DNA from: Ampullaceana balthica
Lineage: Eukaryota; Mollusca; Gastropoda; Lymnaeidae
Direction of reading: 5' to 3'
Length of the DNA stretch: 64,000 nucleotides
Assembly: GCA_944989445.1 (NCBI GenBank)
Contig: CALYLW010000052.1
Coordinates: 1,696,142 to 1,760,141, forward strand
Shown here in pieces: positions 2,252-63,075 of the stretch. A program made the translations under genes and the position numbers. Under the pieces are notes generated by a model that did not search any database, was not told where the DNA came from, and saw only the letters and a list, made by a program, of their open reading frames with translations. Numbering within the stretch: position 1 is the first letter of the stretch; the number at the start of each line of letters is the position of its first letter.

Positions 2252-5200
2252 GTAGGTCAGCTTGCCCGGATGTTAGACACTAGAAATAGTTTATTTCTAT
2301 CTTAACGTTAAAAAAATCAAACCTACATAAATCATCTCTTAAAGTGTGTCATCTATCCATCCATCATTCCATCCATCATTCCATCCATCAATCCACCCAT
2401 CCATCAATCCATCCACCCATCCACCCATCCATCCATCCACCCATCAATCCATCCACTCATCCATCAATCCATCCACCCATCAATCAATCCACCCATCCAT
2501 CAATCCATCCATTCATCCATCAATCCACCTATCCATCCACCAATCCACCTATCCATCTATTTATCTACCTATCTTTTTAAAAATATAACGAATGGAAAAC
2601 AAGACAAACCAACACATTTGTATAACACATGAACACACTTAGTCCCGATGACTAAACAAACTCAGCACTATATTTGAAATCAATATTCTAAAATAATGTT
2701 TTGTTATCAGTGAGTGATCTCTGTTTCACAGGTCATCCACGCCAGATTCGGGCAACCTCGCCCACATCGTGTTTTGTTTCTTCGCCCTCCTCATGAACCT
2801 CATGGTGACCATCTGTCTGCTGACCGCATCTACGGCCCTTCTGCAAGCTCTGGTCAAGGACGCCAGTGGGGAATATTGTGTCCTCATCATGGCTACCTTG
2901 TTTGGTCAGTTAAACTTCTGGGAATATAGCTATATTTTTTTAGTCAGCTAAACTTCTAGGAATATAGCTACGTTGTTTGGTCAGTTAAACTTCTTGGAAT
3001 ATAGCTACCTTGTTTGGTCAGTTAAACTACTGGGAATATAGCTACCTTGTTTGGTCAGTTAAACTTCTAGAAATATGCATTCTTATAGCTACCTTGTATG
3101 ATGAGAGGAGACCAAAGGCGTCAATATGATTTAACGATTCGTTGTTTTGACTTTTGATGTGTTCTTTTATTTTAATTTTTTAAATCTTTCCTTCATTTCC
3201 AGTTTTTATTTCATTTTAATCTTAGAGATGGACAGATGAATGCTAGAGAATGGAAGATTGGGAACAATTGGGTTAAAAGCAGTCGGGAACCCACGGGTTA
3301 AAATCAAACTATCAGCGCGTGTATTAATCTACCTGGTACCTGGCCAAGTTTTTATATAACTGGCGAAGGTCCCACCACATCTAAAGTCTGGAATATTGTT
3401 TCTTGCACGGTGCTTTTGGCCGTGGTAGTAAATCAATGACAGCCAAATGTGAATGTAATCCTTTCATGTTCACTTCATGACTGTCTTGATCTATAAGTGA
3501 ATTATTTTACTGTTTGATATTTTCAGTCAAGTTTTAAACAGAAATCTGATATCTGTTTACTTATGAATATTTCACGTTGAACTTCCTAAGAAAAACGCCC
3601 GACAAAATTATCCAAAACCAGCTTCCCCATCGGTTCGAAAACATATTTTATGTGCTTCCATTTTATTGACACTTTCAAATTCTGAACGAATCGTGCTCTC
3701 TCAAATGTTTTACTCTTACAGCTAATTATTTTGTCCCATCAGCAGTACTAATTCTGACACCAATACTATTTATTCTGTCCCACCAATACTAGTTATTCTG
3801 CCCCACAAATACTAATGATTCTGTCTCACCTCATGAAATGCAAACCGCCCCACTAAAATGAAATGCAAACCGCCCCACTAAAATGAAATGCAAACCGCCC
3901 CACTAAAATGATCCTCTACTTCCCATTTCATGTAACTACAGCATCTCTCCCATTAGGCCAGTAAATTTATTGCAAGTCCTGTATCACTTTGTGCATCAGC
4001 CGCGAGACTTTCCTCGAGGGTGTCTTTTGCCAGGTTTTGCCGAGTGTCGTGTCCACCGAAATTATGCTGCTCTGTTTGAAATCCAATGTTCTTTCGGACA
4101 TCGATTGCCTGGCAATGTTCGTGTTTTGTGGGCATCTGGGGTGCCGTTGTTGTGGTCTCAAAGTGTCTCTTTATTCCGGGGGCGGGGGGCGTGGGGAGAG
4201 CGGGTTCTCTTTCAAAACAAGACCAGCCGTAACCGAATTGATCTGTTTAATGGACCATGTATGTCTGGAACCAACTATAAATGTTTAGGATCAGCCACAC
4301 TTTTTTGGGGAACAGCTTCAATAATTGGGGGCCAGCTATCTGAGGCAAGCTACAATTGTTTGGGACCAAGCAATAAACTTTTTTTGAGCGTAAAATTAAT
4401 AAAATTAAAAAGAAATCTGACCTTCACCTTAAATTGTATTACTCTTAAAACCAAACAGTTGGCAACCATAATTGTTTTGTTCTAAACGTTAAACACAACA
4501 ATTGGAACATTTCTATCTTTTTAAAATGAGATTTAAGTGTATGAACTTTAAGTGTTACACCCAGGAAGAAATGTTGGATCACGGTTTGTGAACGAGCTAC
4601 TGGATAACTGTAGAAGATGTCAGTCTGATAGCTTCAATGAACATATGTATGATAATGAACAAAATAACACGTTGCTGGTGTAGAAGATGTCTGTCTGATA
4701 GCTTCAATGAACATATGCATAATAATGAACAAAATAACACGTTGCTGGTGTAGAAGATGTCAGTCTTATAGCTTCAGTGAACATATGCATAATAATGAAC
4801 AAAATAACACGTTGCTGGTGTAGAAGATGTCTGTCGGATAGCTTCAATGAACATATGCATAATAATGAACAAAATAACACGTTGCTGGTGTAGAAGATGT
4901 CTGTCTGATAGCTTCAATGAACATATGCATGATAATGAACAAAATAACACGTTGCTGGTGTTAAAGATGTCTGTCTGATAGCTTCAATGAACATATGCAT
5001 GATAATGAACAAAATATTGCTGGTCTACTCCCATTTCTGTGGAGGTCATCGCAAAGTCACAACAGATGTGACAACACGGACGCTATGTTTCTCATAAATA
5101 AACTCAACAGCATACCCAGTGTTTTGGTTTCTATAGTCTCTGTCACATACCTCAATTTGGCTATCATATACACTCAATCACACACTTTAATTTGGCTATC

Positions 5201-8200
5201 ATATACACTCAATCACACACTTTAATTTGGCTATCATATGCAGAGGCGTAACTAGATTTTTGACGCCCTTCGCTAATTTATTTTTGGCGCCCTTTATTTA
5301 GATAAAAAAATAATAAAATTAGAGATTTAGCGGCGCCCTTTTGAACTGGCGCAGGCCGGCGCTCTTGGCAACTGCCCCAATGCCAAGCCGTTGTTACGCC
5401 ACTCATCATGTGCTCTCAATCATACACATCAATTGGGCTATCATATCAACTCAATCATACACATCAATTGGGCTATCATATGAACTCAATCATACACATC
5501 AATTGGGCTATCATATCAACTCAATCGTACACATCAATTGGGCTATCATATCAACTCAATCTTACACATCAATTGGGCTATCATATGAACTCGATCATAC
5601 ACATCAATTGGGCTATCATATCAACTCAATCATACACATCAATTGGGCTATCATATCAACTCAATCATACACATCAATTGGGCTATCATATGAACTCAAT
5701 CATACACATCAATTGGGCTATCATATCAACTCAATCATACACATCAATTGGGCTATCATATGAACTCAATCATACACATCAATTGGGCTATCATATGAAC
5801 TCAATCATACACATCAATTGGGCTATCATATGAACTCAATCATACACATCAATTGGGCTATCATATGAACTCAATCATACACATCAATTGGGCTATCATA
5901 TCAACTCAATCATACACATCAATTGGGCTATCATATCAACTCAATCATACACATCAATTGGGCTATCATATCAACTCAATCATACACATCAATTGGGCTA
6001 TCATATGAACTCAATCATACACATCAACTGGGCTATCATATGAGCTCAGTCTCCTTCTGTTATTAAGCTACTTTGTTTGGACTCAATCGCATGCTATAAT
6101 TTATTTAAAATTTAAACTTGTCATGGAAAAATAATTCTTTCATTGAAAAAGTAGACTCAGTTTATTCCCCCGCATGTTTGGTAAAAAACAAAAAAACTTA
6201 CCCTTCAAACAAGACTTTGCTGTTTATAAAATAATGCGTCTTCATGAGCTACAATTGATGAGATTAAACAAAATTAACTTTTAGGCTAATTTTTGTTCTT
6301 GCTTTTATTCTATTTTAGCTCTGCTACTGTGTTTTAAACATTATTTTCATTTGTTTGCCTCGTCCATAAAAGAGGATGTTCAGTAAAAATGTCTCTTGTA
6401 ATCGACCGGGTAAAACACTTGAACACGTTATTTATTTAAAAGACCACTTATTTAGTGCTCTCGTAAACCAGTGCTCCAAATACCCAATTTAGTTATGTCC
6501 CCTTCCATACCCTCCCCCTTTCCACCTCCCTTTATTATTTTAATTTTCTTCTCTTTCTAACAACAAGCTGTGAGAGGAGAAATACGTTTAGTCACTTCGA
6601 TCTCTGAGAGCGGTAATTGATTTTTCCGATCACGCCAATAATCCCTGTTGACGGCAGCCCAAACGCTCACCGCTGGCCACCAAAAGATGTTTTGGTTTTC
6701 TCCCCATTTGTTCCTTGCAGCACCCGCCCCTAAAGAGGATCGACCACACACTCGACATAAACATCTCGTAAACAGGCCATCGTCTGCATTCAGCTGTTTC
6801 AAAATCTTGTTTCTCTTTACTATCCCCCCAAAATGGTTCTTTTTGAAGTCGATGTAGTACTATGTTCAATGATCGACTCTCTACTTCAACCGCCATCCCA
6901 TTGTGTGTTAGCCATAATTCTCGGATCACTTTCGTTGATTAATTTGTCCCTGATTACCTCAGACTCGCCCCCCCCCCACTTCAGATTGACTCTCCACTAG
7001 GGTTGTCAATATTGTTGAAAAAGCTGCCCGGGTACCGTCCTAATTTCGAACAGGTACCCGGGTTACCCGTTCGAATCGTCGCATAATTTTCCCGTCATGA
7101 CCGCTATACAATGATGTGCTGCCTAGCCACCATCCATGCACCTCATTTCACACAGTAGCCAGACGGCCGGCGTCTTGACCATCACACACTGTTAGTAACT
7201 ATTTAATTTATCATTGACTATTAAAACTGACAACTTTTGGTGTATTATTAAAATCAGTTTTTGGGCTAGGCATACGTCTCAATGTTTATACGAGTGGAGG
7301 GAGGAGAGGCGGTAGATAAACAACTTTGGCTAGTCTCAATCGGAAACTTTTCTGCCGAAGGTCTGGATTAACTGTCAAACAGCAGTTTGGGGGCCGACTA
7401 CAAACAGATTTTTGGTAAACTACAGGTAAAAAAAGTATCTTTTTTTGGATATTAAAAGGTCTCCAGGGGCCGGAAAAGAGCATCCAGCGGGCCGCATCTG
7501 GCCTGCGGGCCGTAGTTTGGAGACCCTTGATATAGACGACAATGGCCAAACCGCATGCGGCTCTTCTGTGCTCATATTGTGGCTCGCTTACAATTTATGA
7601 AAGATATGTTACAATGATTAGTGGAAGATTTCCATGCCAGGTTTAATGACCCAAACTGCTGCAATGTGGCTCTCAACAATTTTGTTTATGTTTTAAAATG
7701 GCTCTCAGTAACTACAGGTATGGCCACCCCGGATATAGACATTGAAGCCACATTTTCACGGGTACCCGGGCGGAATTTTACTACCCGGGTAATCACCTAC
7801 ACCACCACCTCAGACTGACACATTACCACCTCAGACTGACACACCACCACCTCAGACTGACACATCACCACCTCAGACTGACACATTACCACCTCAGACT
7901 GACACATCACCACCTCAGACTTACACATTACCACTTCAGACTGAAACACCCACACCTTAGACTGACACACCCAAACCTTAGACTGACACACCCCCACCTC
8001 AGACTAACATACCCAAACCTTAGACTGGCACACTCATAGCTTAGACTGACACACCCAAACCTTAGACTGACACACCCCCACCTCAGACTAACACACCCAA
8101 ACCGTAGACTGACACATTCCCACCTCAGACTGACACACCCCCAATTCAGATTGCCACCCCCACCTCAGACTGACACACCCCCCAATTCAGATTGACACCC

Positions 8201-11200
8201 CCAACCTCAGACTGACACACCCCACCTCAGAATGACACACCCCCACCTCAGACTGACACACCCCACCTCAGACTGACACTTCACCACCTCAGACTGACAC
8301 ATCACCATCTCAGACTGACACATCACCACCTCAGACTGACACATCACCACCTCAGACTGACACATCACACCCTCAGACTGACACATTACCACCTCAGACT
8401 GACACATTACCATCTCAGACTGACACATCACCACCTCAGACTGACACATCACCACCTCAGACTGACACATCACCACCTCAGACTGACACATCACCACCTC
8501 AGACTGACACATCACCACCTCGGACTGACACATCACCACCTCAGACTGACACACCCCCACCTCAGACTGACACATCACCAACTCAGACTGACACACCCAC
8601 ACCTTAGACTGACATACCCAAACCTTAGACTGACACACCCCCACCTCAGACTAACACACCTAAACCTTAGACTGACACACCCCCACCTCAGACTAACACA
8701 CCCAAACCTTAGACTGACACAGCCACACCTTAGACTGACACACCCAAACCTTAGACTGACACACCCCCACCTCAGACTAACACACCTAAACCTTAGACTA
8801 ACACACCCCCACCTCAGACTAACACACCCAAACCTTAGACTGACACACCCCCACCTCAGACTGACAGACCCCCCTATTCAGATTGACACCCCCACCTTAG
8901 ACTGACACACCCCCACCTCAGTCTGACACACCCACAATTCTGATTGAAACCCCTCACCTCAGACTGACACACCCCCACCTCAGACTGACACATCCGCACC
9001 TCAGACTGACACACCCCCACCTCAGACTGACACACACCCAATTCAGATTGACACCCCCCACCCTCTGTCTTGTGCTATATTGTAGCTCAGAGTGCTACAT
9101 CCAACCAATGACCACTACACCCTGTCTCAGAGTGCTACATCCAACCAATGACCACTAAACCCTGTCTCAGAGTACTACATCCAACCAATGACCACACCAC
9201 CCTGTCTCAGAGTGCTACATCCAACCAATGACCACTACACCCTGTCTCAGAGTGCTACATCCAACCAATGACCACTACACCCTGTCTCAGAGTGCTACAT
9301 CCAACCAATGACCACACCACCCTGTCTCAGAGTGCTACATCCAACCAATGACCACATCACCCTGTCTCAGAGTGCTACATCCAACCAATGACCACACCAC
9401 CCTGTCTCAGAGTGCTACATCCAACCAATGACCACACCACCCTGTCTCAGAGTGCTACATCCAACCAATGACCACACCACCTGTCTCAGAGTGCTACCTC
9501 CAACCAATGACCACTACACCCTGTCTCAGAGTCCTACATCCAACCAATGACCACTAAACCCTGTCTCAGAGTACTACATCCAACCAATGACCACACCACC
9601 CTGTCTCAGAGTGCTACATCCAACCAATGACCACTACACCCTGTCTCAGAGTGCTACATCCAACCAATGACCACACCACCCTGTCTCAGAGTGCTACATC
9701 CAACCAATGACCACACCACCCTGTCTCAGAGTGCTACATCCAACCAATGACCACACCACCCTGTCTCAGAGTGCTACATCCAACCAATGACCACTACACC
9801 CTGTCTCAGAGTGCTACCTCCAACCAATGACCACTACACCCTGTCTCAGAGTGCTACATCGAACCAATGACCACACCACCCTGTCTCAGTTGCGCTACAT
9901 CCCACCCCTATCAGATTTCACTAATGGTCCGAGTACCAAAGCTTTCATGACTGGTGCTAACGTTGGCTCGTTGCATTGATCGGGCCAGCGCACTCTATGA
10001 TTTGGGCAATTTTCTCACGACATTTTGTCGCTGCTCCGTCTGACCTTTTAAGGTGTGGGTGATGTCGCTTGCTTTCTGCTTTGTTTGACTGGTATATTTA
10101 TGTCAACGATCGCTGCTGTTTCTGTTTTTCTTTCTTCTACCCAACATCAGCGGCATTCTATCGACCCTACTCGGTTACACTGATTTGGAAATCGAAACAA
10201 TTTGGATACTCGGCCACTCAAGCTACGTGTTGTTCATCGATTCACTGAACATATTTCCTGTTTAGCTCTTATCGGAAACCTTTCTACCTACCAATATCTA
10301 CTCTTAGATTAATTAAACAACATGGTTATGGTAATGTATACGGTTTTTATTTCAAACCTGTTCCCTGGTGAAGTTGAAGAGATTGATCCGAAGGTCTCAC
10401 GAGAAATGAGAGGACAGAACTGACCATGCAGCTAATAGAAACAAAGATCTGAACTGTCCAGGGAAATAGGATCATCAGATGGGCATCACTTGACCTGGTC
10501 AGTTATCATGTAGTCAGGGACGTCGACCTGTGGGGACTGCTGGGATGTTGTTAAAATGATTGTTTGGACTGGGAACGTTGGGTAGAGGGTGTTTTCAACT
10601 TATAATTATAACTGCAATACACAACAAACACTAAATAATTTAAAGAGCCGCCGGTAATTTTTTTTTATTGCTGGGAAGTTTATTTAAGTTTATTTAGGTT
10701 TATTTAAGTTTATTTAAGTTTATTTATATATAAGTTTACCTAAGTTTATTTAAGTTTATTTAAGTTTATTTAAGTTTATTTAAGTAGCATTTTGAAAATA
10801 GTTTTCAAGGTAAAGTCAAAGATTGCAATAAAATAACAGTTTCGACTGCTTATTGATTGTTTTATTTAATCTTAAAAACTACGTTAACTGAGCACACGTG
10901 ATCTAAATATCGGACTATTTCATATATATTTAATATATATTTTTAATATCTTTAAACAAATCTTCATGAACTTAAATCAATTTTCAATTAGCAAAATGTC
11001 TTTGACATTTCGAGAAGTCAAACCTGGACACGTTACTCAAAGATGTCTTTGACAGCTTGTACATTTTTATCTTCCACTTGTATATTTTTAAGTTTTGTTT
11101 TCTAAATTATTTTTTGCGCGCAATTCTTCTCTAGAGTTTAATAAAAATAAATGTTTCATGAACACATTAGACAAAATAATTTAAAAGTGAATTCATAGCA

Positions 11201-14200
11201 GCTTATTTAATTGATGGAAAGATATTCACCAGCATTAAGGTAAACTAATTTTACAGGTTTATCTGAAGAATATTTTCTTTCAATACCACATCCAACTGGT
11301 GACATAAAGAAAGCTACACATGAACTTTGTGACACACAACACATTGACACACCAACCCACTGACACACCAACCCACTGACACACCAACCAACTAACACAC
11401 CAACCAACTGACACACCAACCCATTGACACACAAACCCACTGACACACCAACCCACTGACACACCAACCCATTGACACACCAACCAACTGACACACCAAC
11501 CCATTGACACACAAACCCATTGACACACCAACCAACTGACACACCAAGCCACTGACACACCAACCCACTGACACACCAACCCATTGACACACCAACCAAC
11601 TGAGACACCAACCCATTGACACACAAACCCATTGACACACCAACCAACTGACACACCAAGCCACTGACACAGCAACCTACTGACACACAAACCCATTGAC
11701 ACACCAACCCATTGACACACCAACCCATTGACACACCAACCCATTGACACACAAACCCACTGACACACAAACCCACTGACACACCAACCCACTGACACAC
11801 CAACCCATTGACACACCAACCCACTGACATCCCAACCCATTGACACACCAACCCACTGACACACCAACCCATTGACACACCAACCCATTGACACACAAAC
11901 CCACTCACACCAACCCATTGACACACCAACCCACTGACACACCAATCAACTGACACACCAACCCATTGACACACCAACCCACTGACACACCAACCCATTG
12001 ACACACCAACCCACTGACACACCAACCCATTGACACACCAACCAACTGAGACACCAACCCATTGACACACAAACCCATTGACACACCAACCAACTGACAC
12101 ACCAAGCCACTGACACAGCAACCTACTGACACACAAACCCATTGACACACCAACCCATTGACACACCAACCCATTGACACACCAACCCATTGACACACCA
12201 ACCCACTGACACACAAACCCACTGACACACCAACCCACTGACACACCAACCCATTGACACACCAACCCATTGACACACCAACCCACTGACATCCCAACCC
12301 ATTGACACACCAACCCACTGACACACCAACCCATTGACACACCAACCCATTGACACACAAACCCACTCACACCAACCCATTGACACACCAACCCACTGAC
12401 ACACCAATCAACTGACACACCAACCCATTGACACACCAACCCACTGACACACCAACCCATTGACACACCAACCCACTGACACACCAACCCATTGACACAC
12501 CAACCACTGTTACACACCGACCCAGTGACGTCATACATTTCAGGACTGTCCTCAAACTGTAACTATTGCCAGAGCCAATGCTGTTACTTCCACCCCACCC
12601 CCTCCACCGCTACGTTATTAGACCTCACTTCTATCGCCACTTCGAACTTTGCGCCACGGAACATTTGAAAAGAGCGCAATTAGCGCACTGGTCCGTACTT
12701 CCTGCACGGCGGACGCGCTGGCCTCGTTTTGAATCTGTCACCGTGTCGTGACAGAAACGCCAAATCAGTATGTTTTTTTCCCCCAAAGTTATTGATACAA
12801 TACTGTACAATGTAAGAACCCTTGATGGTGTTATCTCATTCAATGTTGCGATGGAGTTACGATTGCGAGGGTAAAATATTTCCCGTTGTAATGTTTTATA
12901 CGGAAGTCTTATGTTAGGAAACAGTTTCTATTATTCTTAACATTGACGTAAACTAGAGGCTTTCTAGCAAAAGAGCCAATGATTCAAAAGGCTATTTAAA
13001 AAGAACGGATACATTTGCCTCATTTTTCCACGCCTAACGTTGCAGAAACACTCAAGTTAAGTGTGATAATTTCATGAGTATTGAGATGATAATTACATGA
13101 GTATTGATAGCATAACACGTCTAATACCAAAAAACGCTGCTAATACCTGTACATGCATTTATGAAAAATTCATAAAGAGAAGTTTAAAATAGATTCATTT
13201 TTCTTTATCATATCGTTCAATTTAATCATCTAAATTGCCCCTAAAGGTCAACCTTTAAACTTGACTTTCCCAGCAGGTACTAATATTAAACTCATAAATA
13301 TGGTCATCCGAAGAGACCCCAATGTCAAAACAGTAACCCTTGAAAATTAGATCCCAGTATTAAACCAGTATGAACATCCCATCAAATATCATTGTTAAAG
13401 TAGTTAGACCATCCCCTCAGATCCCAGTGTTAAACCAGTAAGAACATCCCCTCAGATCCCAGTGTTAAACCAGTAAGAACATCCCCTCAGATCCCAGTGT
13501 TAAACCAGCAAGAACATCCCCTCAGATCCCAGTGTTAAACCAGTAAGAACATCCCCTCAGATCCCAGTGTTAAACCAGTAAGAACATCCCCTCAGATCCC
13601 AGTGTTAAACCAGTAAGAACATCCCCTCAGATCCCAGTGTTAAACCAGTAAGAACATCCCCTCAGATCCCAGTGTTAAACCAGTAAGAGCATCCCATCAG
13701 ATCCCAGTGTTAAACCAGTAAGAACATCCCCTCAGATATCAATGTTAAACCACTAAACCTTGATCATTAAATCCCAAAGATAAACTCGCCCTCCTGTCTT
13801 CCTACCAGGCAGCTACTCATTCGTCGGCGGCCTGGGCTCGACCTTCTACGTGTCTTACTTCAACACCGTCATCATCTTCATCTGCCTGCTCTGCTTCACC
13901 GTCAGCATCTTCTACGATGGCGAGGACGCCGGCACGTTCAACGCCATTGACTACGTCTATGACAAGGTGCACTGCATGACTGGACCAGAGAACAACGAGG
14001 AGAGGTTAGACAAGTGGACACAAATAGTGGTGTATAATTGGTTTTTAGAGTCATTTTTAGCCTTCGTCTGTCAAATGTTTCAATGTCCCGTTGGGGTGAG
14101 AATTTTAATTATTATTATTTTAAGATGAAGACAGGTACACGAGCTGGACGTTAATTTAACAAGAGAATTCATGTTCGAAGACAATTCTGGTTTCATGATC

Positions 14201-17200
14201 AGTTAGACACAGTGGCCAATTCTACATCCCCATTTTGACATAAGATTAAATTGAGTATGTTTGTTCTGACATGAGTTATGTAATCTATGTTTGATCTGTC
14301 ATGAGTTATGTCGTAAGAGTTTATCCTGTTATGAGTTATGTATTTGTATTCTGACATAAGTTGTGTTGTATATGTTTGTACTGTCATGCGTTAAGTTATG
14401 TATGTTTGGTCTGAAAAGATATATTATGTGTATGTTTTCTTTCATGAGTTATGTCATATATGTTTGTTCTGACGTGAGTTTTTGTTCTGTATGTTTCTCC
14501 TGATATGAATTATGTTGTGTATGTTGTTCTGTCATGAGTTATGTAATCTATGTTTGTTCTGACATGAGTTATCTAATCTATGTTTGTTCTGACATGAGTT
14601 ATGTAATCTATGTTTGTTCTGTCATGAGTTATGTAATCTTTGTTTGTTCTGTAATGAGTTATGTAATCTATGTTTGTTCTGTCATGAGTTATGTAATCTA
14701 TGTTTGTTCTGTCATGAGTTATGTAATCTATGTTTGTTCTGTCATGAGTTATGTAATCTATGTTTGTTCTGTCATGAGTTATGTAATCTGTTTGTTCTGT
14801 CATGAGTTATGTAATCTATGTTTGTTCTGTAATGAGTTATATAATCTATGTTTGTCCTGACAGGAGTTATGTAATCTATGTTTGTTCTGACATGAGTTAT
14901 GTAATCTATGTTTGTTCTGTCATGAGTTATGTAATCTATGTTTGTTCTGTCATCAGTAATGTAATCTATGTTTGTTCTGTTATAAGTTATGTAATCTATG
15001 TTTGTTCTGTCATGAGTTATGTAATCTATGTTTGTTCTGTAATGAGTTATGTAATCTATGTTTGTTCTGTCATGAGTTATGTAATCTATGTTTGTTCTGT
15101 CATGAGTTATGTAATCTATGTTTGTTCTGTCATGAGTTATGTAATCTATGTTTGTTCTGTCATGAGTTATGTAATCTATGTTTGTTCTGTACTGAGTTAT
15201 GTAATCTATGTTTGTTCTGTACTGAGTTATGTAATCTATGTTTGTTCTGTCATGAGTTATGTAATCTATGTTTGTTCTGTAATGAGTTATGTAATCTATG
15301 TTTGTTCTGTCATGAGTTATGTAATCTATGTTTGTTCTGTCATGAGTTATGTAATCTATGTTTGTTCTGTCATGAGTTATGTAATCTATGTTTGTTCTGT
15401 CATGAGTTATGTAATCTATGTTTGTTCTGTACTGAGTTATGTAATCTATGTTTGTTCTGTACTGAGTTATGTAATCTATGTTTGTTCTGTCATGAGTTAT
15501 GTAATCTATGTTTGTTCTGTCATGAGTTATGTAATCTATGTTTGTTCTGTCATGAGTTATGTAATCTGTTTGTTCTGTCATGAGTTATGTAATCTATGTT
15601 TGTTCTGTAATGAGTTATATAATCTATGTTTGTCCTGACAGGAGTTATGTAATCTATGTTTGTTCTGACATGAGTTATGTAATCTATGTTTGTTCTGTCA
15701 TGAGTTATGTAATCTATGTTTGTTCTGTCATCAGTAATGTAATCTATGTTTGTTCTGTTATAAGTTATGTAATCTATGTTTGTTCTGTCATGAGTTATGT
15801 AATCTATGTTTGTTCTGTAATGAGTTATGTAATCTATGTTTGTTCTGTCATGAGTTATGTAATCTATGTTTGTTCTGTCATGAGTTATGTAATCTATGTT
15901 TGTTCTGTCATGAGTTATGTAATCTATGTTTGTTCTGTCATGAGTTATGTAATCTATGTTTGTTCTGTCATGAGTTATGTAATCTATGTTTGTTCTGTAC
16001 TGAGTTATGTAATCTATGTTTGTTCTGTACTGAGTTATGTAATCTATGTTTGTTCTGTCATGAGTTATGTAATCTATGTTTGTTCTGTAATGAGATATGT
16101 AATCTATGTTTGTTCTGTCATGAGTTATGTAATCTATGTTTGTTCTGTCATGAGTTATGTAATCTATGTTTGTTCTGTCATGAGTTATGTAATCTATGTT
16201 TGTTCTGTCATGAGTTATGTAATCTATGTTTGTTCTGTACTGAGTTATGTAATCTATGTTTGTTCTGTACTGAGTTATGTAATCTATGTTTGTTCTGTCA
16301 TGAGTTATGTAATCTATGTTTGTTCTGTCATGAGTTATGTAATCTATGTTTGTTCTGTCATGAGTTATGTAATCTATGTTTGTTCTGTACTGAGTTATGT
16401 AATCTATGTTTGTTCTGTCATTAGTTATGTAATCTATGTTTGTTCTGTCATGAGTTATGTAATCTATGTTTGTTCTGTACTGAGTTATGTAATCTATGTT
16501 TGTTCTGTACTGAGTTATGTAATCTATGTTTGTTCTGTCATGAGTTATGTAATCTATGTTTGTTCTGTCATGAGTTATGTAATCTATGTTTGTCCTGACA
16601 GGAGTTACATCACCTTCTGGTCTGAGGGCGCCATCATCTGGGCCGTCCAGGGTTTCTTCGCCACGGCGTCCATCACATTCTGCGACCAGGCGTCCTGGCA
16701 GAGTCGAATTGCGGCCAAACCGGTCCAGGGCGTCCTTGGCTTCTTCGCTGCCACTTACATCTGGTTTGCTATCCCGTCCACCATTGGGACAACCCTCGGG
16801 TTGGCGTACCTGGCCAAGACGGCCGACAACAACAGCACCATGGTCCTGGAGCCAGGGGACGTCGACCAAGGTGAAGTAACTCGCCCTTCTAGCATCTCAT
16901 AAAAATCATTCTTACTATTTCATCTTTCTTTCTGTCGCTTAAATGACCATAACATCCCGGATTGAATGCGCCGTGTAGTAAGTATTTTAGTAAGTAATGT
17001 TAGTAAACGTTTCTATTTGTTTGTTTATTTTGTTCATTTTAGCAGTGCACCTTTTGAATTCGTGCCCCTAGGGGAAACTGGGTTGCGGGGTGGGTGAGTC
17101 AAGGTCACGAGGCCCTACTCTCAGAAAATGTTTTATGCCGAGAAGATGGCGCAGTTTGGCCGTGTTTTTGCCACAGCCTCTAATAGAGCCATATAAAGAA

Positions 17201-20200
17201 ATTCAGAATAGGTATGTTCGTTAGTAATTTCTAATACTGAACATGGTATATAATGACGTAGCCATCGTATTCGGTTTTTTTTTGGGTGTTTTTCCCCCAC
17301 TACGAACAGGTTCCAGAATAAGAGCGTCGTCAGATTTTATTATATTAATGGGACTTAACCAATAGAGATTGAAAGAGTACGATCTTTGGCACTGATGTGA
17401 GCGTGTAGGTGATCTCATGAGACCAAACCCTTAACCAATAGAGATTGAAAGAGTACGATCTTTGGCACTGATGTGAGCGTGTAAGTGATCTCATGAGACC
17501 AAAGGTTTATTTATTCACTTTAAGAACTCTTGCTGGTGAAGGTTTGGTCTTTGCCAGCCCGGCTGACACGAAAGTGTAACTGATAGCAACATGATACCCA
17601 CAAGTGTTGCCGTGGCAACATTGCTTGTCTTCTCGCGGAACAGAACAAATACTCCAGAGTTATGGAACCTCGCCACTTGGAGCCGCCCTGTTGATTTATG
17701 ATCGCATTCCAAAGCAAGTTGGGTTCGAGGGTGCCGCGAGGCATGGGTGCCAGTTGTCAGGAGTTTGGTGTCAGATGAAGTTCAGAAATATATTTGAGTT
17801 GAACTCTTGTCGGGTGAACATTGAAGCTATCACAAGAGAAAGACACGATTTAAATTTAGTTATTGAGGCTAATGCAGATGCAAAACCTAGCATGACTGTT
17901 AAACATCTAGAATGAATGTTAAACATCTAACATGATTGTTAAACATCTAACATGACTGTTATCTAATTGAGATTTAAACGTATCATTTATATTTTAAAAA
18001 ATGAAGACTAAAAAAAAATTAGGAAAAAAAGCACAAACACATAATATCTGTCTGGAAAATTTAAACAAGTTTTTATATCTTTACAATTAAAATTTATAAA
18101 TTGTACTGACGTTTAAAACTATAAATTGTTAAATTTTTTACAAAATGTAATTTTGTATTTCAGCAGACACACGTTAAGACACATCTGCATCTTATCTTTC
18201 TTTGTCTCATCTTATTTGTTACAGACGATACTTCTATACAGAAGATCCATGGTTAAAGTCTAGTCTTGAATAAATTATAAATCTTAGGTGGGTCTGAAAC
18301 TTTGCCTTAGACATAACAATACACGTTTAATTTTTTTTAAAAACGTAAAGAAACAAGTTTTTGACTATAAATCCTTTATGTATGAGACGTAACTAAAAGA
18401 ATGTTCATTATAATACGCAGCGCAAGACCATCCAAAAATACAAATTTGTAGTTGTGTCGTAAAACATGTTTAATATAATGCGCACCGATTAGGAATATGT
18501 TTATAAAAAGTGTTGTCAATAAAATACGCACCTAATTGCGCGACAGAAAAGGTTGTTCAATATAATGCGCACCCTTACACTCTTTCTAAAAAAATAACAT
18601 GATACATAGGAATAAATAAAATAATCTAAAAAATCAATAATTCAATTACGGTAAATGCGATCGATCTGAAATTTTGATACATTGTTTTTATTATCGGTAC
18701 AAAACTGCCTGCAAAATTTCAACTCGCTAGCTTACGAGCAAGTGGGTTAGAAATCGATCCAAAGTTTTGGCGACAAGCAATCAAGCAATCAAGGGTGCAG
18801 ACACCACGAGTTAATATAAAGGATTTAATAAGAAAAACCCGTAAAAAACCAAGTTTTTGACTATAAATCCTTTATGTACGAGAAGTAATTAAAAGAATGT
18901 TCATTATAATACGCAGCGCCAGACCATCCAGAAATACAAAATTGCAGTTGTGTCGTAAAACATGTTTAATATAATGCGCACCGATCAGGAATATGTTTAT
19001 AAAAAGAGCTGTCAATAAAATACGCACCTTATTGCGCGACAGAAAGGTTGTTCAATATAATACGCACCGCGACGCTCTATCTCAAAAAATAGCATGATAC
19101 ATAGGAATAAATAAAATAATCTAAAAAATCAATAATTTAATTACGGTACATGCGATCGATCTGAAATTTTGATACATTGTTTTTATCATCGGTACGAAAC
19201 TGCCTGCAAAATTTCAGCTCGCTATCTTGCGAGCAAGTGGGTTAAAGATCGATCAAAAGTTTTGGCGACAAGCAAGCAAGCAAGCAAGGTCGGTCGGTCG
19301 GTCGGCCGCAGACACCACGAGTTAATATAAAGGATTTAAAAAGAGTTTAGCTTACAAAAAAAAAGATATGGGTTTAATGAACGATCGCGTTTAGCATACT
19401 TCATCACACAAGGTAGCACTGTTGTAAAGGTTAACAAAATAACCAAGAGAGCAGCAGTTAGCATTCGGCAATACATTTGATGATACAAAGACGACTGCGT
19501 GAGGTCGAGTATGTTTCATAAACTTGTAACAAACTATTTCTGAGGTGATTCCGATTACTGACGCCACAGTAAGCCTCCAAGTTGACCTTGTGTCGGTGAA
19601 GGCCATCTTTAAACCTTGACCTTGTGTCTGTGAAGGCCTTCTTGAAACATTGACATTGTGTCTGTGAAGCCCTTCTTGAAACCTTGACCTTGTGTCTGTG
19701 AAGGCCTTCTTGAAACCTTGACCTTGTGTCTGTGAAGGCCTTCTTGAAACTTTGACCTTGTGTCTTGTTAAGGCCTTCTTGAAACCTTTACCTTGTGTCT
19801 GTGAAGCCCTTCTTGAAACCTTTACCTTGTGTCTGTGAAGGCCTTCTTGAAACCTTGACCTTGTGTCTGTGAAGGCCTTCTTGAAACCTTGACCTTGTGT
19901 CTGTGAAGGCCTTCTTGAAACCTTGACCATGTGTCTGTGAAGGCCTTCTTGAAACATTGACATTGTGTCTGTGAAGCCCTTCTTGAAACCTTGACCTTGT
20001 GTCTGTGAAGGCTTTCTTGAAACCTTGACCTTGTGTCTGTGAAGGCCTTCTTGAAACCTTGACCTTGTGTCTGTGAAGGCCTTCTTGAAACCTTGACCTT
20101 GTGTCTGTGAAGGCCTCCTTGAAACCTTGACCTTTTGTCTTGTTAAGGCCTTCTTGAAACCTTGATCTTGTGTCTGTGAAGGCCTTCTTGAAACCTTGAC

Positions 20201-23200
20201 CTTGTGTCTGTGAAGGCCTTCTTGAAACCTTGACCTTGTGTCTGTGAAGGCCTTCTTGATACCTGGAGGAAATAACTAGTTTCGTAGTAATGGTCCCAGA
20301 AATGTAAAAGATCATTCCGACCTTAAGACAATAAACACAAAAACTTGTTCCGCAGAATTTCAAAGGAACTGCCTCCAAGTGTGTTATACTGAGTGATCAG
20401 TGTCGAGTTGTGCCATATATAGGCACCCAAGTGTCGAGTTGTGCCATAGATAGGCACCCAAGTGTCGAGTTGTGCCATATATAGGCACCCAAGTGTTGAG
20501 TTGCGCCTTAGATAGGCACCCAAGTGTCGAGTTGTGCCATAGATAGGCACCCAAGTGTTGAGTTGCGCCTTAGATAGGCACCCAAGTGTTGAGTTGTGCC
20601 ATAGATAGGCACCCAAGTGTTGAGTTGCGCCTTAGATAGGCACCCAAGTGTTGAGTTGTGCCATAGATAGGCACCCAAGTGTTGAGTTGCGCCTTAGATA
20701 GGCACCCAAGTGTTGAGTTGCGCCTTAGATAGGCACCCAAGTGTTGACTTGCGCCATAGATGAGGCACGCAAGTGTTGAGTTACGCCATGGATAGGCACC
20801 CAAGTGTTGAGTTACGCCATAGACAGGCACCCAAGTGTTGAGTTGTGCCATAGATAGGCACGCAAGTGTTGAGTTGTGCCATAGATAGGCACGCCCCTGT
20901 ACCGGCACCCTATCGCGGGGGTATCTCTCTCCTCAGATTACCACTTTCAGCCGCCTCCATTCTCTCACGCTGGGACACCGATATTTACCCGAACTTATTA
21001 TCTAGAAACACATGTGAGTGAAGAATTTTCTGTTCCCCGGTGCATGTTGATAAGAACCCGCCAAGGCCTCTGTTTTATGTACGAGTGTTCCTGAGTCTAA
21101 CTGTGAAGAGGTATTCGCATTATCATTCAAGTTCTCTCGCGAAAAATGCCTGGTTTGGCCTTGAACTCCGGAAGTAACAATTTAATTATTTATGGTATCC
21201 TCCTTCATAAGTCTTTGTATTTTTCTTGGCCACCTCACTGTAGCTAAAGCTTGTTATATGTTACCGAGATCTAATCAAGCTACCTTTAACTTCGTCAGTT
21301 CTTGCATTGTACTCATTATGATAATAGCTCAGGGGCTTACTTTACATTTTGTATGTTGACAGCTCATATTTTCATTTTAGACTCCGTATTTTGACAGCTC
21401 ATATTTTTTACTTTAGACTCCATATGTTGAGCACTCAGACCTGTGAATCAAAAATTTTCATCCAAATTTGAAATAATTAAACACAACGTTGTCTATGATT
21501 AGCTTTGTCATTACACAATGAAGCTATGTTGAAAGTGTCAAGTTTAGCGGTGTTGAAAGTGTCAAGTTTAGCGGTGTTGAAAGTATCAAGTTTAGCGGTG
21601 TTGAAAGTATCAAGTTTAGCGGTGTGTTGAAAGTGTCAAGTTTAGCGGTGTTGAAAGTGTCAAGTTTAGCGGTGTTGAAAGTGTCAAGTTTAGCGGTGTT
21701 GAAAGTATCAAGTTTAGCGGTGTGTTGAAAGTTGCAAGTTTAGCGGTGTTGAAAGTGTCAAGTTTAGCGGTGTTGAAAGTGTCAAGTTTAGCGGTGTTGA
21801 AAGTGTCAAGTTTAGCGGTGTGTTGAAAGTGTCAAGTTTAGCAATGTTGAAAGTGTCAAGTTTAGCGGTGTTGAAAGTGTCAAGTTTAGCGATGTTGAAA
21901 GTATCAAGTTTAGCAATGTTGAAAGTGTGAAGTTTAGCGGTGTTGAAAGTATCAAGTTTAGCAATGTTAAAAGTGTGAAGTTTAGCGGTGTTGAAAGTAT
22001 CAAGTTTAGCGGTGTTGAAAGTGTCAAGTTTAGCGTTGTGTTGAAAGTGTCAAGTTTAGCAATGTTGAAAGTGTCAAGTTTAGCGGTGTTGAAAGTGTCA
22101 AGTTTAGCGATGTTGAAAGTATCAAGTTTAGCAATGTTGAAAGTGTGAAGTTTAGCGGTGTTGAAAGTATCAGTTTAGCGGTGTTTATATCACAGGTTAG
22201 TAGACTGTAGATATTTTTATTTGGATTTAAAACTCTGACCTGACGACTCAAACAAATCTCTTGATGTGATGCAGTAATATTGATGTAAACGTGTGCATAC
22301 AATTGCATATTTTATGACTTCATGAGATAGGTATGTTTCACACGCATTCCTATCTTAAATATCATCTAAAGTCATATATAAAGCACATGGTAAAGTAACA
22401 TCTAAAGTCATATCTTAAGCACATGGTAAAGTAACATCTAAAGTCATATATAAAGCACATGGTAAATTAACATCTAAAGTCATATTTAAAGCACATGGTA
22501 AAGTAACATCTAAAGTCGTATATAAAGCACATGGTAAAGTAACATCTAAAGTCATATATAAAGCACATGGTAAAGTAACATACTAAAGTCATATATAAAG
22601 CACATGGTAAAGTAACAACTAAAGTCCCATACAAAGTGACACTGATAAGTCACCCATTACGTCACGTTTTAAGTCACATCTTCAGTAACATCTAAAGTAA
22701 CATCAAAAATATCATCCACTGGTGAAATTTAAACTGACATCCAAACTCACATCTTATGTCATATCAAAAGTCACTTTTAAAGTCACCTCTAAAGTCATAT
22801 CTTAAGTCACATCTTCTTGCAGGTCTGGTGACCGTGTTTATGGCCCAGTCAGAGATGGGCTTGGCCGGAAGTTACATGGTCCTGACCATGCTCATCATGG
22901 CCGTCATGTCCTCGGGGTCAGGAGAGGTCATGGCCATATCTTCTATCATCGTTTACGACATCTACCAAACACACTTTCGGCCTTTCAAGTAAGTGATTGC
23001 AATGTGCATTGTAGTTTTGACCAATAAATATTCACATTCATTTGAATGTTTCATTTTGTTTTTGACAAATACACATTTACATTCATGTCAATTTTTTTTT
23101 AAAAATGAGAATTTAAAACACGTCAGTTTTCAGAATTGATATATTAGTATTGAATTTTATTCTTCACCTTTTCGTTATCGGATATTTTGAATTTAATTAT

Positions 23201-57827: not shown

Positions 57828-57829
57828 CT

Positions 57830-58335: not shown

Positions 58336-59209
58336 ATGGACGTTATCGATTCAAACACAAGTGAAAAGCCACAACCTGGAGGCCAGCCCTCGGCCTCGCC
58401 TCAGAAGTCCAACGCCGCCAAAGATGTAAGGTTCCGCGTGGAGAAAAAGAACACGTCAATCAAAATGCTGGACCGCAGAAATAAAAGCTCCTCGAACTTG
58501 AAAGCGGACGGGGGCACCAAGCCTGCCTTGCCGGAGATCGGGAAAGAGTTTCTGGTCACTCATTTATCGGACAACTGGAAGATACGACAGGCCGCCAAGA
58601 AGGCCGCTTTAGAAAAACTCAAACTTGAAGAGCAGAAAAAGAACGAGGCAGTCTCGGCAAGCGAGCCGGTAGTGACGACTAATCTCCGGGAGGAGGTGGC
58701 GAGGGAATTGCTCTCCCAAACACAGCAGGGGCGGGAATATCCTAACGCCGTCAGTCCTGGTCCGGAACTGACCTCGAGCAACTTGCAAGACTTGACGCGA
58801 AGGCGGCAGTCGGCGGATGACGCAATCCTCGGACGTCATCGGGGCTCCGTCACGGACATTTTGAAACGCATCAGCGAGAGAAAAAAGTCGCTTCTCGTCA
58901 ACATCGACGCGTCCGTCGCGAGGCGAAAATCTGGCGAGTTCGACCCGAAGTTATTGACCAGTGGTCAAGACGGTCCGTTGGCGAGGGACGCCCCCGGTGG
59001 CACCATCCTGGAAGAAACATCAGCGCCCCCCAATGACGAGCCCGTCGAGGACACGCAACTGGAAAATGTCGAAGAGTCCACTGATTACCCCTACAGCACG
59101 GAGTTCGACCTGGACGACGAGGCCTCCACTGATTATTCCGACAGTCCCCCGCCCCTGAATCTTGAACTGGATTCTGACCACTTCGAAACGGACCTGAGTG
59201 ATAATGAAG
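58336..59209 (+). CDS. LRR protein exon 1: disordered charged N-terminus
   Basis: The ATG at 58336 sits in a good eukaryotic context (AACATGG). It encodes 291 codons plus one base to the donor GAAG|GTCAGT after 59209. The N-terminus begins MDVIDSNTSEKPQPGG and has RRNKSS basic stretches. A helical KKAALEKLKLEEQKKNE segment follows, then an RRRQSADD / SERKKSLL region with serines next to arginines. The end is very acidic (STEFDLDDEASTDYSDS). No domain recognised; likely disordered and possibly phosphorylated (inference). The frame continues 14 bp past the donor to a stop at 59221, so a single-exon protein is the alternative, but phase-1 splicing to 60521 joins cleanly to LRRs. Confidence 0.8.
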
Positions 59210-59546
59210 GTCAGTCAAATTAATATATAGATCACATGTATTTAAGGTCGGTCAAGTTATTAGATGACAGATGTTGATAGACAAAATAATTTAAATAATT
59301 ATTAACTAGAAGGATAATGTAGATGTAGTCCAATTATTGGCTCAAATATACCTCAAATGACAAGATTATTAGAAACATTAGACGCGTTATCGAAACAGTT
59401 AAATATCTTAGCTCTATATCCCGTTACTACTAATGATATTGATTTTCTGAACATGATAGAAAATGGCTTGGTCAGAATTTGAGTAAAATTCAGGAGATAA
59501 AAAAAAGCCCGTAAATAAAAAAAAACGTAAAAAAACAAGTTTTTGA

Positions 59547-60276
59547 CTGTAAATCCTTTATATATGAGACATAACTAAAAGAATGTTCATTATAATACGC
59601 AGCGCAAGACAATATAGAAATACAAAATTTGTTTTGTTATGTGTCGTAAAATATGTTTAATACTAGTGTATCACCCGTCAAAAATGACGATAGTTTTCAA
59701 AATAAATACACGCCAGTCGTCAGATTAAAAAATAACTTAATACAGAACTTTCATTTATTTTATTTATTTTATTTGATTCATTTATTATCATATTGAACAA
59801 TTTTATGCGGAACGTTCGAAAAGTGTTATTTTCGGTGCAGTAATTTGGTGCGCTGCTTTCTAAAATTAGAAACAGCATTACAAATACATACAGACCACGG
59901 TATTTATGTATATTGATAATCCGCACCGATCGGGAATATATTTTTAAAAAAGTATCGACAATATAATATAATACGCACCTTACCGCGCGTCAGGAAAGGT
60001 TGTTCAATATAAGACGCACCGCGACACTCTAGCACAAAAATTAACATGCTACATAGGAATAGAGAAAATCTAAAATTCATTAATTTAAATACCGTACATT
60101 CAATCGATCTGAAATTTTGACAAATCATTTTTATCAACGGCACGAGTATGCCTGCAAAATTTCAGCTCGTTAGCTTACGAGAAAGTGTGTTAAAATCGAT
60201 CCAAATATTTTTCGGCATTCAAGCAAGCTATCAAGCAGGTCATCAAGCAGACGCCACGAATTAATATAAATGATTT
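59547..60276 (+). mobile_element. MITE-like dispersed repeat interrupted by another element
   Basis: Starts TGTAAATCCTTTATATATGA and ends GAATTAATATAAATGATTTA. The family sequence is broken after GTTTAATA at about 59661 and resumes at TAATCCGCACCGATC (about 59926). Confidence 0.7.
59661..59926 (+). mobile_element. Nested insertion inside the MITE-like repeat
   Basis: About 265 bp beginning TACTAGTGTATCACCCGTC and containing GGTGCAGTAATTTGGTGCGC then TGCTTTCTAAAATTAG, shared with the element at 43447-44660 (about 44067). It splits a copy of the MITE family, so it is the younger insertion. Confidence 0.6.
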
Positions 60277-60289
60277 AAAAACAAAGTTT

Positions 60290-60470
60290 TTGACTATATA
60301 CAGAATATATATTTATATATGAGATATAACTAAAAGTATGTTCAATATAATACGCACCGTGCAACAGAATAGCATTATCGTTTACATGCTACATAGAGAT
60401 ACATAGAGATAATAAAAAAAATAATTATTTTAATTAGAGTACCTTCAATCGATCTGAAATTTGCTAAGAG
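60290..60470 (+). mobile_element. Partial MITE-like repeat, truncated before LRR exon 2
   Basis: ATGTTCAATATAATACGCACC and ATCGATCTGAAATTTG belong to the family. The copy stops about 50 bp before the exon 2 acceptor. Confidence 0.6.
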
Positions 60471-60520
60471 GTCTGATCTGTAAACTGTTCAGTTGTAAAC
60501 AATGAGTTTTATTTGGCCAG

Positions 60521-60708
60521 AGCCAGGTAAAGACGCCAAGCCCAAACGACCGGTCAACAAAATGCTGTTGGATTACAAGCTGGCCTGTGCCCAGTCCCAA
60601 CTCAAGCCCAACACGACCTACATGAGACAGTGTGGCCGGACCTCCATAGACATCAGGAACAGGATGCTGACCTTCAAGGACGCCAAGCCCATAGCAGTGG
60701 CCCTGGTG
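60521..60708 (+). CDS. LRR protein exon 2
   Basis: Acceptor TTTGGCCAG ends at 60520; donor CTGGTG|GTAGGT follows 60708; phase 1 to 0. It encodes EPGKDAKPKRPVNKMLLDYK, then ACAQSQLKPNTTYMRQCG and the first LRR TSIDIRNRMLTFKDAKPIAV. The 'YKxAC...' lead-in before ribonuclease-inhibitor-type LRRs recalls LRRC74/LRRC34-like proteins, but the assignment is tentative. The end of this exon seeds a 35-bp tandem repeat. Confidence 0.83.
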
Positions 60709-61000
60709 GTAGGTCTGTTGGTCTTTTAGCAGTGGCCCTGGTGGTAGGTCTGTTGGTCTTTTAGCAGTGGCCCTGGTGGTAGGTCTGTTGGTCTTCTAGC
60801 AGTGGCCCTGGTGGTAGGTCTGTTGGTCTTTTAGCAGTGGCCCTGGTGGTAGGTCTGTTGGTCTTCTAGCAGTGGCCCTGGTGGTAGGTCTGTTGGTCTT
60901 TTAGCAGTGGCCCTGGTGGTAGGTCTGTTGGTCTTCTAGCAGTGGCCCTGGTGGTAGGTCTGTTGGTCTTCTAGCAGTGGCCTGGTGGTAGTTCTCTTGG
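60693..61000 (+). repeat. 35-bp tandem repeat made from the LRR exon 2 end and donor
   Basis: About nine copies of AGCAGTGGCCCTGGTGGTAG plus GTCTGTTGGTCTTTT. The first 16 bases of unit 1 are coding; the donor GTG|GTAGGT is repeated intact in nearly every unit. Confidence 0.95.
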
Positions 61001-61184
61001 TCTTCATACAAACTTTGATTGTAAGTAATGTAAGGGACGATATCGAAATGGCGGGCCAGGGTCATCATTAATTTTGCCTTTAAATTCCTCGTGTAACATA
61101 GGGCTTCAGTCAAAGCCTTCCATTTGGCTCGGTTTCTTGCCAGTATTCCCAGCTCTTCCTCTCTGTCTCATCCACCGCACTACG

Positions 61185-61618
61185 TCAGTCTACGTGTGTT
61201 CTTTGGTCTTCCTTGTCTGTCTACATGTGTTCTTGGGTCTTCCTTGTATGTCTACATGTGTTCTTTGGTTTTCCTTGTCTGTCTACATGTATTCTTTGGT
61301 TTTCCTTGTCTGTCTACATGTGTTCTTTGGTCTTCCTTATCTGTCTACATGTGTTCTTGGGTCTTCCTTGTCTGTCTACATGTGTTCTTGGGTCTTCATT
61401 GTCTGTCTACATGTGTTCTTGGGTCTTCCTTGTCTGTCTACATGTGTTCTTTGGTCTTCCTTGTCTGTCTACATGTGTTCTTGGGTCTTCATTGTCTGTC
61501 TACATGTGTTCTTGGGTCTTTCTTGTCTGTCTACATGTGTTCTTGGGTCTTCCTTGTCTGTCTACATGTGTTCTTGGGTCTTCCTTGTCTGTCTACATGT
61601 GTTCTTGGGTCTTCCTTG
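61185..61618. repeat. 31-bp minisatellite, about 14 copies
   Basis: The unit is TGTCTGTCTACATGTGTTCT plus TGGGTCTTCCT; T/G and CCT/CAT variants. The plus-strand ORFs (VYMCSWVFLVCLHV) are artefacts. Confidence 0.95.
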
Positions 61619-61639
61619 TCGCCGTTGGCCCTGTGGCTA

Positions 61640-61792
61640 TGGCGGATTAAGGGGGAGGGTGCTGGTTGGGCCAAAGACAGGGGCCCCCACTGATTTAAGG
61701 GCCCCAAACTTATTATATTGTATAATAAAGGTGGCTGGACAGGGTCCCAGATGGAATTGCAGCCAGGGGCCCCGTGCAATCTTGATCCGCCC
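61640..61792. mobile_element. Small MITE with ~11-bp inverted ends
   Basis: Left end GGCGGATTAAGG, right end CTTGATCCGCC (10 of 11 bases match). Interior has GGGGCCCCC blocks. About 150 bp. Confidence 0.55.
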
Positions 61793-61799
61793 TGCCCTG

Positions 61800-62526
61800 T
61801 GGGTTCCATAAAATGGAAGGTAGGCAAACAAAAAAGAAGATTTAAGTCACTCAATTTTTAATATAATCTTAAAGTATTAAAATTAAACCAATAAATATAA
61901 CATTTTCTATTTTTTAGTCTTTTTCATCGTATACACACAAAATATTATTTTCCAACAAAAAATATATTCCCTTGAGTATAACGTGAAAAAGGAGGGGGGG
62001 AGGGACATCAGTCAGGTTAAATGTCGCGTATCATTAACTAAAGATACGAGAGACCTTGAAAAACATGATGAAATATAATAAATAATTCTAAAAAAATATA
62101 TATTTTTTTAAAATGTGACTATTATTTATTAGCAAGATTTCCTCTACCAGCACACACAGACTAATATAAATGATTCAAAAATCTAAAATATCACTGATAA
62201 TAACAAAATACGTGTAAAAAAAGTAAGTTAAAATACTGAAATCAGATAATACAAGACATTATTAGAAGCATCAGCCATGCGATGTGTACAAACTAATTAT
62301 TCATTTGGTTTACATTTAATACTTCACAATTAGTTAGTCTTAATTATTTCTAAATATGTTTACTTCGTCAATGAACTAAATTTTAAAATTCAAAACCGTT
62401 TGTGAATATTTGTAAAGAATTCATAAGTTTACACAAAGAACATCAATAAATTGTTAGAGACCGTAAATACCTAGGCTAATAAGACATACTATACTTAAAA
62501 TGGTAATTTATTTGATTATCACTTAC
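61800..62526. other. LRR intron 2: AT-rich, nothing recognised
   Basis: No repeats or coding signals seen. Confidence 0.5.
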
Positions 62527-62660
62527 TTGTAACAATGTCTCTGACAACGTAGTGCAGTGTATACAATCAAAGCTCAGAGAATGACTTTGTTTATCTGTTG
62601 TAACAATGTTTTTGACAACATAGTGTATACGATCAAAGCTCAGAAAATGACTTTGTCCAC
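62527..62660 (+). repeat. Two ~65-bp direct repeats abutting the LRR exon 3 acceptor
   Basis: TTGTAACAATGT, GACAAC, GTATAC and ATCAAAGCTCAGARAATGAC occur twice. The second copy ends a few bases before TTGTCCACAG. Confidence 0.8.
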
Positions 62661-62662
62661 AG

Positions 62663-62770
62663 GAGGACAAAAAGACCAGTTTTCTGGACATCTCTGACAA
62701 CCCACTGGGTCCACTCGGCACGGCGTGTATAGCTGAGATGTTGACCTCAAACAAAACCATTGTGGAATTG
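62663..62770 (+). CDS. LRR protein exon 3
   Basis: Acceptor TTGTCCACAG ends at 62662; donor GAATTG|GTACGT follows 62770; phase 0 to 0. It encodes EDKKTSFLDISDNPLGPLGT and ACIAEMLTSNKTIVEL. Joined to exon 2 the repeats are 27 and 28 residues long, the spacing of ribonuclease-inhibitor LRRs (L.LS.N.lG..G...la..L..n). Confidence 0.85.
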
Positions 62771-63075
62771 GTACGTCTGGGTAGTTGGTACGTCTGGGTA
62801 GTTGGTACGTCTGGGTAGTTGGTACGTCTGGGTAGTTGGTACGTCTGGGTAGTTGGTACGCCTGGGTAGTTGGTACGTCTGGGTAGTTGCTACGTCTGGG
62901 TAGTTGGTACGTCTGGGTAGTTGCTACGTCTGGGTAGTTGGTACGTCTGGGTAGTTGGTAAGTCTGGGTAGTTGGTACGTCTGGGTAGTTAATACGTCTG
63001 GGTAGTTGGTACGTCTGGGTAGTTCGTACGTCTGGGTAGTTGGTACGTCTGGGTAGTTCGTACGTCTGGGTAGAC
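62768..63075 (+). repeat. 17-bp tandem repeat starting at the LRR exon 3 donor
   Basis: About 18 copies of GTACGTCTGGGTAGTTG. Unit 1 is the donor (TTG|GTACGT); every unit ends GTTG or similar, so the junction string TTGGTACGT recurs throughout. Confidence 0.95.

Follow-up and report, generated by a model that had tools for sequence, protein, structure and literature searches.

Minisatellites at exon edges in two genes of the snail Ampullaceana balthica are probably locally born arrays tolerated by splicing

We analyzed a stretch of 64,000 base pairs (bp), here called the window (C52:1696142-1760141), from the 1.1-Gb assembly of the snail Ampullaceana balthica (Lymnaeidae). The window carries parts of a DUR3-type urea-proton symporter gene (gene 1) and of an LRRC74A-like leucine-rich-repeat gene (gene 2). 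In both genes tandem arrays line up with exon boundaries more often than expected by chance, and a pair of related myosin VIIa copies demonstrates that an exon edge can serve as the template of such an array. The arrays are probably products of ordinary local duplication which splicing tolerates when they straddle an exon edge, rather than of a dedicated system.

Results and discussion

Alignment of arrays with exon boundaries in the window

Distances are those between an exon edge and the array end that faces it, with negative values where the array enters the exon. An array end was found within -40 to +20 bp at 12 of the 28 exon boundaries, spread over nine of the 13 introns (Table 1). Six of these arrays overlap 3-26 bp of the exon, another two begin at 0 or +1 and four stop 6-19 bp short of it. 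At the remaining 16 boundaries the nearest facing array end was at least 51 bp away, or there was none. Only arrays with a period of 8 or more were considered. This also left out a (TGT)n stretch that starts at 28840, 15 bp beyond the first base of the intron at the exon 9 donor of gene 1.

Since 39% of the window consists of tandem arrays, chance alignment had to be tested. The arrays were re-placed randomly within their own introns in 20,000 trials, with an exon overlap of up to 30 bp permitted. This gave a mean of 2.8 and a maximum of 9 boundaries, and the observed 12 was reached in 0 of the 20,000 trials. The alignment in the window is thus beyond chance, and a reading by pure chance was rejected. 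An earlier note on this DNA had named these same junctions in both genes, had estimated that about nine of 13 introns were affected and had argued that random repeats would not line up in this way; our analysis confirmed all three statements.

On a second scale, based on the density of array ends in the intron interior, the window contains 13 arrays versus 2.4 expected. The 12 junctions count as 13 arrays in density-based tallies because two overlapping arrays reported by Tandem Repeats Finder (TRF) begin at the exon 6 donor of gene 1.

Chance or wrong exon models might account for such a pattern, given the high array cover, the choice of a striking window and the small ratio found outside of it (see below). 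However, the null distribution never produced 12, and the exon models, in which the earlier note had seen a possible source of error, agree with relatives. We regard this account as a whole as extremely unlikely: it is refuted for the window, but it may still apply to the genome-wide excess. The window was noticed for being extreme, and its strong alignment is partly that of a selected extreme.

Exon edges as templates of arrays

The arrays consist of head-to-tail units of approximately 10-100 bp as determined by TRF, which is the definition of a minisatellite. Coding bases recur together with the splice signal in the copies of six of the 12 window arrays, in agreement with the earlier note, which had described such units in several cases. 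In the other six, the unit could not be followed into the exon. The residues at the exon 2 donor of gene 1 are common to the proteins of six molluscs, so the exon at this position predates the array.

Two copies of the myosin VIIa gene, located on contigs C208 and C719, share 93-95% identity in the four longest blocks of their alignment and 75-96% in the shorter blocks. At one donor (base 4369 of the merged piece) the C208 copy carries an array of eight 32-bp units, each composed of 19 exon and 13 intron bases. The same donor in C719 is a single junction and the array is absent. The C719 junction matches the first copy of the C208 array and again its last copy together with the distal flank (78% over 157 bp). 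At the acceptor at 1501 a 78-bp array reaching 40 bases into the exon is present in four units in C208 versus two in C719. A third junction, a donor, holds a 42-bp array of two units in one copy and a 48-bp array of 11 units in the other, the latter being cut by the locus end. Copy number, a further mark of minisatellites, thus differs between related copies (x4 versus x2; x8 versus absent).

Birth of an array from an exon edge, with later change in its length, was therefore observed in the myosin VIIa gene. An exon edge can serve as the template of an array, as the earlier note had proposed. The copies on C208 and C719 correspond to the loci L045/L028/L054/L037 and L030/L044; they are either paralogs or divergent haplotypes.

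Local origin and proposed mechanism

Among the 63 unit consensuses of the window with at least 14 bp, 61 were unmatched in the 279 kb of further DNA analyzed from this genome, and the two with matches were CATC-type and A+T-rich low-complexity units. Within the window, the listed pairs of arrays with a shared unit were neighbouring arrays only. The units are locus-specific, which argues that the arrays were born in place. A dispersed or mobile repeat was rejected as their source on account of the 61 units unmatched in these 279 kb.

We propose that tandem arrays would arise locally by duplication of whatever sequence is present and would then expand and contract in copy number, with exon edges unshielded from this process. 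A duplication across a donor or an acceptor would keep the working site at the exon-proximal copy. The messenger RNA could remain normal, so that the array would survive in the intron, and purifying selection would presumably tolerate the remaining copies.

Arrays at exon edges of other genes

The interval of -40 to +20 bp and the re-placement null were fixed, with the DUR3 paralogs and further gene families in view, before other genes were examined. A ratio of at least 2 with P < 0.01 was to be read as a property of the genome and a ratio near 1 as a fluke. In total, 259 junctions outside the window were analyzed: 86 of DUR3 paralogs (four genes), 125 of myosin genes, 40 of kinesin genes and 8 of genes 1 and 2. 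One weakly supported intron on C357 was excluded from the DUR3 paralogs. The myosin and kinesin loci were located by a Pfam search which was blind to repeats. For kinesin, 127 matches were obtained, and 20 of the first 22 without stops were used; C1174 was excluded as a likely copy of C150, and C23:2031043 was omitted inadvertently. The myosin loci were the best 30 of 80 matches, from which three were dropped, all on C2239. These three (L035, L049 and L052) belong to a myosin copy with in-frame stops in two of its three matches and with starts resembling those of the C208:438k copy; it is probably a pseudogene.

The DUR3 paralogs were tested by re-placement. The myosin and kinesin loci had short flanks, and for these the background was the density of array ends at an intron depth of 80-639 bp, with an interval of -40 to +19. 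Exon edges of the myosin and kinesin loci were predicted; when tested on DUR3 paralog exons, the predictor found the precise edge at 35 of 38 acceptors and at 31 of 38 donors. Errors of tens of bases in some of the predicted edges blur a peak, and some weak myosin matches are perhaps not exons.

Arrays including exon bases were found at 16 of the 259 junctions between -60 and -3, versus 13.4 expected from the intron background. Between -40 and -3 there were 14 versus 8.7 expected (P = 0.08). The limit of -60 was introduced after arrays 49-56 bp inside exons had appeared, and it reduces the ratio. Exon-including arrays thus occur at about the rate of intron arrays, as if splicing tolerated them. 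We consider locally born minisatellites, tolerated at exon edges, to be the probable explanation.

Several results weigh against tolerance as a complete account. In the DUR3 paralogs 13 of 86 junctions had an array in the interval, versus 5.4 by re-placement (P = 0.0008). Over all outside junctions (-40 to +19) the tally was 25 of 259 versus 13.5 expected, a ratio of 1.85 (95% confidence interval 1.11-2.98, P = 0.009). Arrays abutting the edge (-2 to 19) numbered 11 versus 4.8 expected (P = 0.015), for which tolerance alone is insufficient. Finally, the mismatch of copied sequence to the working copy (0.12 for the signal, 0.09 for exon bases and 0.165 for the rest of the unit, in the 19 measurable of 21 arrays) stems from an ungapped measure with few copies in several arrays.

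The ratio of 1.85 with P = 0.009 lands between the two preset outcomes. Enrichment beyond the window, which the earlier note had regarded as decisive, was hence seen over all 259 junctions but fell short of the strong rule, and the myosin and kinesin genes taken by themselves gave 11 of 165 versus 7.4 expected (P = 0.18). When the interval was widened to -60 to 19, 27 arrays were found outside the window versus 18.3 expected (approximately 1.5-fold, P = 0.06). Leaving out C719, which is related to C208, the numbers were 25 versus 16.7 (P = 0.063). An earlier tally of 180 junctions had given 20 versus 9.3 (P = 0.004); here L045 was excluded as a near-copy and a donor of L028 was shifted 8 bp by hand to fit its paralog. 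Eight of the 11 edge-abutting arrays fall in the DUR3 paralogs and in the parts of genes 1 and 2 outside the window. Overall there is a weak excess at exon edges, driven mainly by the DUR3 family. The residual excess of about 1.5 to 2-fold may come from a mutational preference or be a remnant of intron growth.

The possibility that abutting arrays are worn forms of exon-including ones was rejected. Mean identity of the unit continuation was 0.39 in 14 cases, drawn from the window, the DUR3 paralogs and the outside parts of genes 1 and 2, versus 0.41 at 406 control ends.

A mutational preference would mean that tandem duplications arise more readily at exon edges, which would act as hot spots, for example because transcription, R-loops or nucleosome or methylation borders promote errors of slippage or repair there. 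The counts in the window and in the DUR3 paralogs point in this direction, as do the donors outside the window (14 versus 6.6 expected between -60 and 19, P = 0.02) and the arrays of unlike size on one shared donor in the two myosin VIIa copies. However, the acceptors outside the window showed 13 versus 11.6 expected in the same interval (P = 0.42), and the myosin and kinesin genes together gave no significant excess. We judge a general hot spot unlikely. More specifically, exon edges, and donors above all, might be preferred birth sites, with approximately one in 16 junctions holding 2 to about 80 copies of its own splice site, of which the exon-proximal one is chosen. We regard this as conceivable but rather improbable.

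Passive intron growth would also place arrays near exon edges, if ancestral introns were short and later insertions filled their middle while old arrays stayed behind. A slight increase between 20 and 79 bp in the DUR3 paralogs (7 versus 4.1) fits this, and it was not seen in all 259 junctions (13 versus 12.3). Since the excess peaks within 20 bp instead of declining over at least 100 bp, growth of this kind is a quite doubtful explanation.

Selection on the copied splice signals

The earlier note had also considered selection for duplicated splice signals, which would be kept because they aid or regulate the splicing of repeat-filled introns. In two arrays every spanning copy does retain the signal: the donor hexamer is identical in 7 of 7 matched spanning copies at the exon 2 donor of gene 2, and the signal is kept in 10 of 10 at donor 22006 of C330 (+). 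In contrast, only 2 of 58 matched spanning copies at the exon 4 acceptor of gene 1 have an identical CAG signal. Over the 19 measurable arrays the signals are no better preserved than the adjoining exon bases and diverge from the working copy at a rate similar to that of the remaining unit. The length of exon-including units is divisible by 3 in 7 of 22, as expected by chance. Signal mismatch and unit lengths together give no sign that the copies are translated or selected. The copied splice signals are neither preserved nor eliminated, and we hold their maintenance by selection to be very unlikely.

Gene models and further features of the window

Joined exons were used in the homology search that named the genes. 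Eight exon pieces scanned against Pfam had no match above a curated cut-off. The joined exon fragments of gene 1, which begins with exons upstream of the window, showed 94% identity to a Lymnaea stagnalis protein, the nearest among the matches listed. A splice-aware script agreed with the hand model at nine of the ten in-window introns of gene 1. The disagreeing one is intron 1, which lies beside the exon 2 frameshift and whose junctions were set by hand. Compared with the Lymnaea protein, exon 2 is shifted in frame by one base, and no such shift was seen in the remaining in-window exons; the cause is either an error in the assembly or damage to the allele. In gene 2 the end of exon 4 was placed from the splice signal only. 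Beyond the window, positions 64001-69000 (L023, 1-5000) read N, a gap or a withheld stretch that presumably contains the middle exons of gene 2.

Table 1. Genes, exons and arrays at exon edges (positions in the window; distances in bp)
Feature	Position	Strand	Distance	Description
Gene 1, DUR3-type urea-proton symporter	2135..31450	+		11 in-window exons, tblastn of Lymnaea stagnalis P0001 and splice script
Gene 1 exons 1-6	2135-2251, 2732-2904, 13809-14004, 16602-16870, 22823-22988, 25127-25333			
Gene 1 exons 7-11	26606-26838, 27691-27872, 28681-28824, 29682-29822, 31241-31450			followed by stop codon
Gene 2, LRRC74A-like leucine-rich-repeat gene	58336..63716	+		relatives P0121-P0123
Gene 2 exons	58336-59209, 60521-60708, 62663-62770, 63573-63716			further exons past the window
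Gene 1 donor exon 2	2892..3076	+	-13	37-bp array x5, 13 coding bases in unit
Gene 1 acceptor exon 4	14256..16607	+	-6	30-bp array x79, extends 6 bp beyond acceptor
Gene 1 acceptor exon 5	22356..22814	+	+8	36/12-bp array, stops 8 bp short, no exon bases
Gene 1 donor exon 6	25335..26096	+	+1	14/20-bp arrays from second intron base
Gene 1 donor exon 7	26813..27004	+	-26	48-bp array x4, first unit holds 26 coding bases
Gene 1 acceptor exon 8	27477..27711	+	-21	59-bp array x4, 21 coding bases in unit
Gene 1 acceptor exon 10	29537..29662	+	+19	26-bp array x4.8, stops 19 bp short
Gene 1 donor exon 10	29823..30150	+	0	20-bp array x16, begins exactly at donor
Gene 1 acceptor exon 11	31111..31227	+	+13	59-bp array x2, stops 13 bp short, pyrimidine tract in unit
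Gene 2 donor exon 2	60692..61005	+	-17	35-bp array x9, 17 coding bases
Gene 2 acceptor exon 3	62527..62656	+	+6	66-bp duplication, 1.9 copies, stops 6 bp short
Gene 2 donor exon 3	62768..63073	+	-3	17-bp array x18, 3 coding bases

Three further features were noted in the window. An intergenic array of 143 units of 36 bp with 97% matches (33022-38138) has long open frames on both strands which are not genes. One short open frame recurs at 433-585, 930-1064, 18678-18857 and 19173-19322 with a companion on the opposite strand and is a dispersed repeat. The open frame at 1245-1421 resembles what we take to be the end of a reverse transcriptase of a long interspersed nuclear element (LINE).

Significance

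If approximately 6% of junctions (16/259) hold copies of their own splice site together with coding bases, the spliceosome faces many near-identical options and mostly must pick one copy consistently. The myosin VIIa pair with and without the array permits a direct test of the extra sites. Should the edge excess reflect a mutational preference, this would suggest that minisatellites have a source linked to transcription or chromatin. If edges are preferred birth sites, these introns are a natural experiment on splice-site choice and intron growth. Even if only tolerance is involved, the arrays gauge the weakness of selection against duplicated splice sites.

Comparison with known systems

A report in Nucleic Acids Res from 1995 is said, by its title, to describe a human interferon-induced transcript in which a minisatellite supplies several splice donors, the gene reportedly being 6-16/IFI6. 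Both there and here the units carry donor sites. The human case concerns one gene for which multiple donors are claimed, whereas here many junctions are involved and the evidence is from DNA sequence. Units of this type, with exon bases and splice signal together, were found in six of the 12 window arrays and at 16 of the 259 other junctions (3-60 bp).

In human segmentally duplicated genes, internal tandem repeats have been described at exon-intron boundaries (Genome Biol 2009, PMC2812944). These arrays are like those of the snail in their units of about 30 bp, minisatellite expansion, boundary location and differences between paralogs. They alter splicing and can make novel introns, whereas in the snail the intron is present with and without the array in the one pair examined.

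Intron gain by tandem genomic duplication (reviewed in PMC3443670) likewise involves a splice-site sequence copied beside the original. In the one pair tested it was rejected as an explanation, the C719 copy holding the intron without an array.

No earlier survey of arrays at exon edges in snails was found within the literature covered. The earlier note had stated that no named system exists for these arrays. This stands in so far as no dedicated system was recognized, but single junction-spanning minisatellites are known. By their anatomy the snail arrays are junction-spanning minisatellites, and what is notable is their frequency in one genome, as seen at 259 junctions from four small sets.

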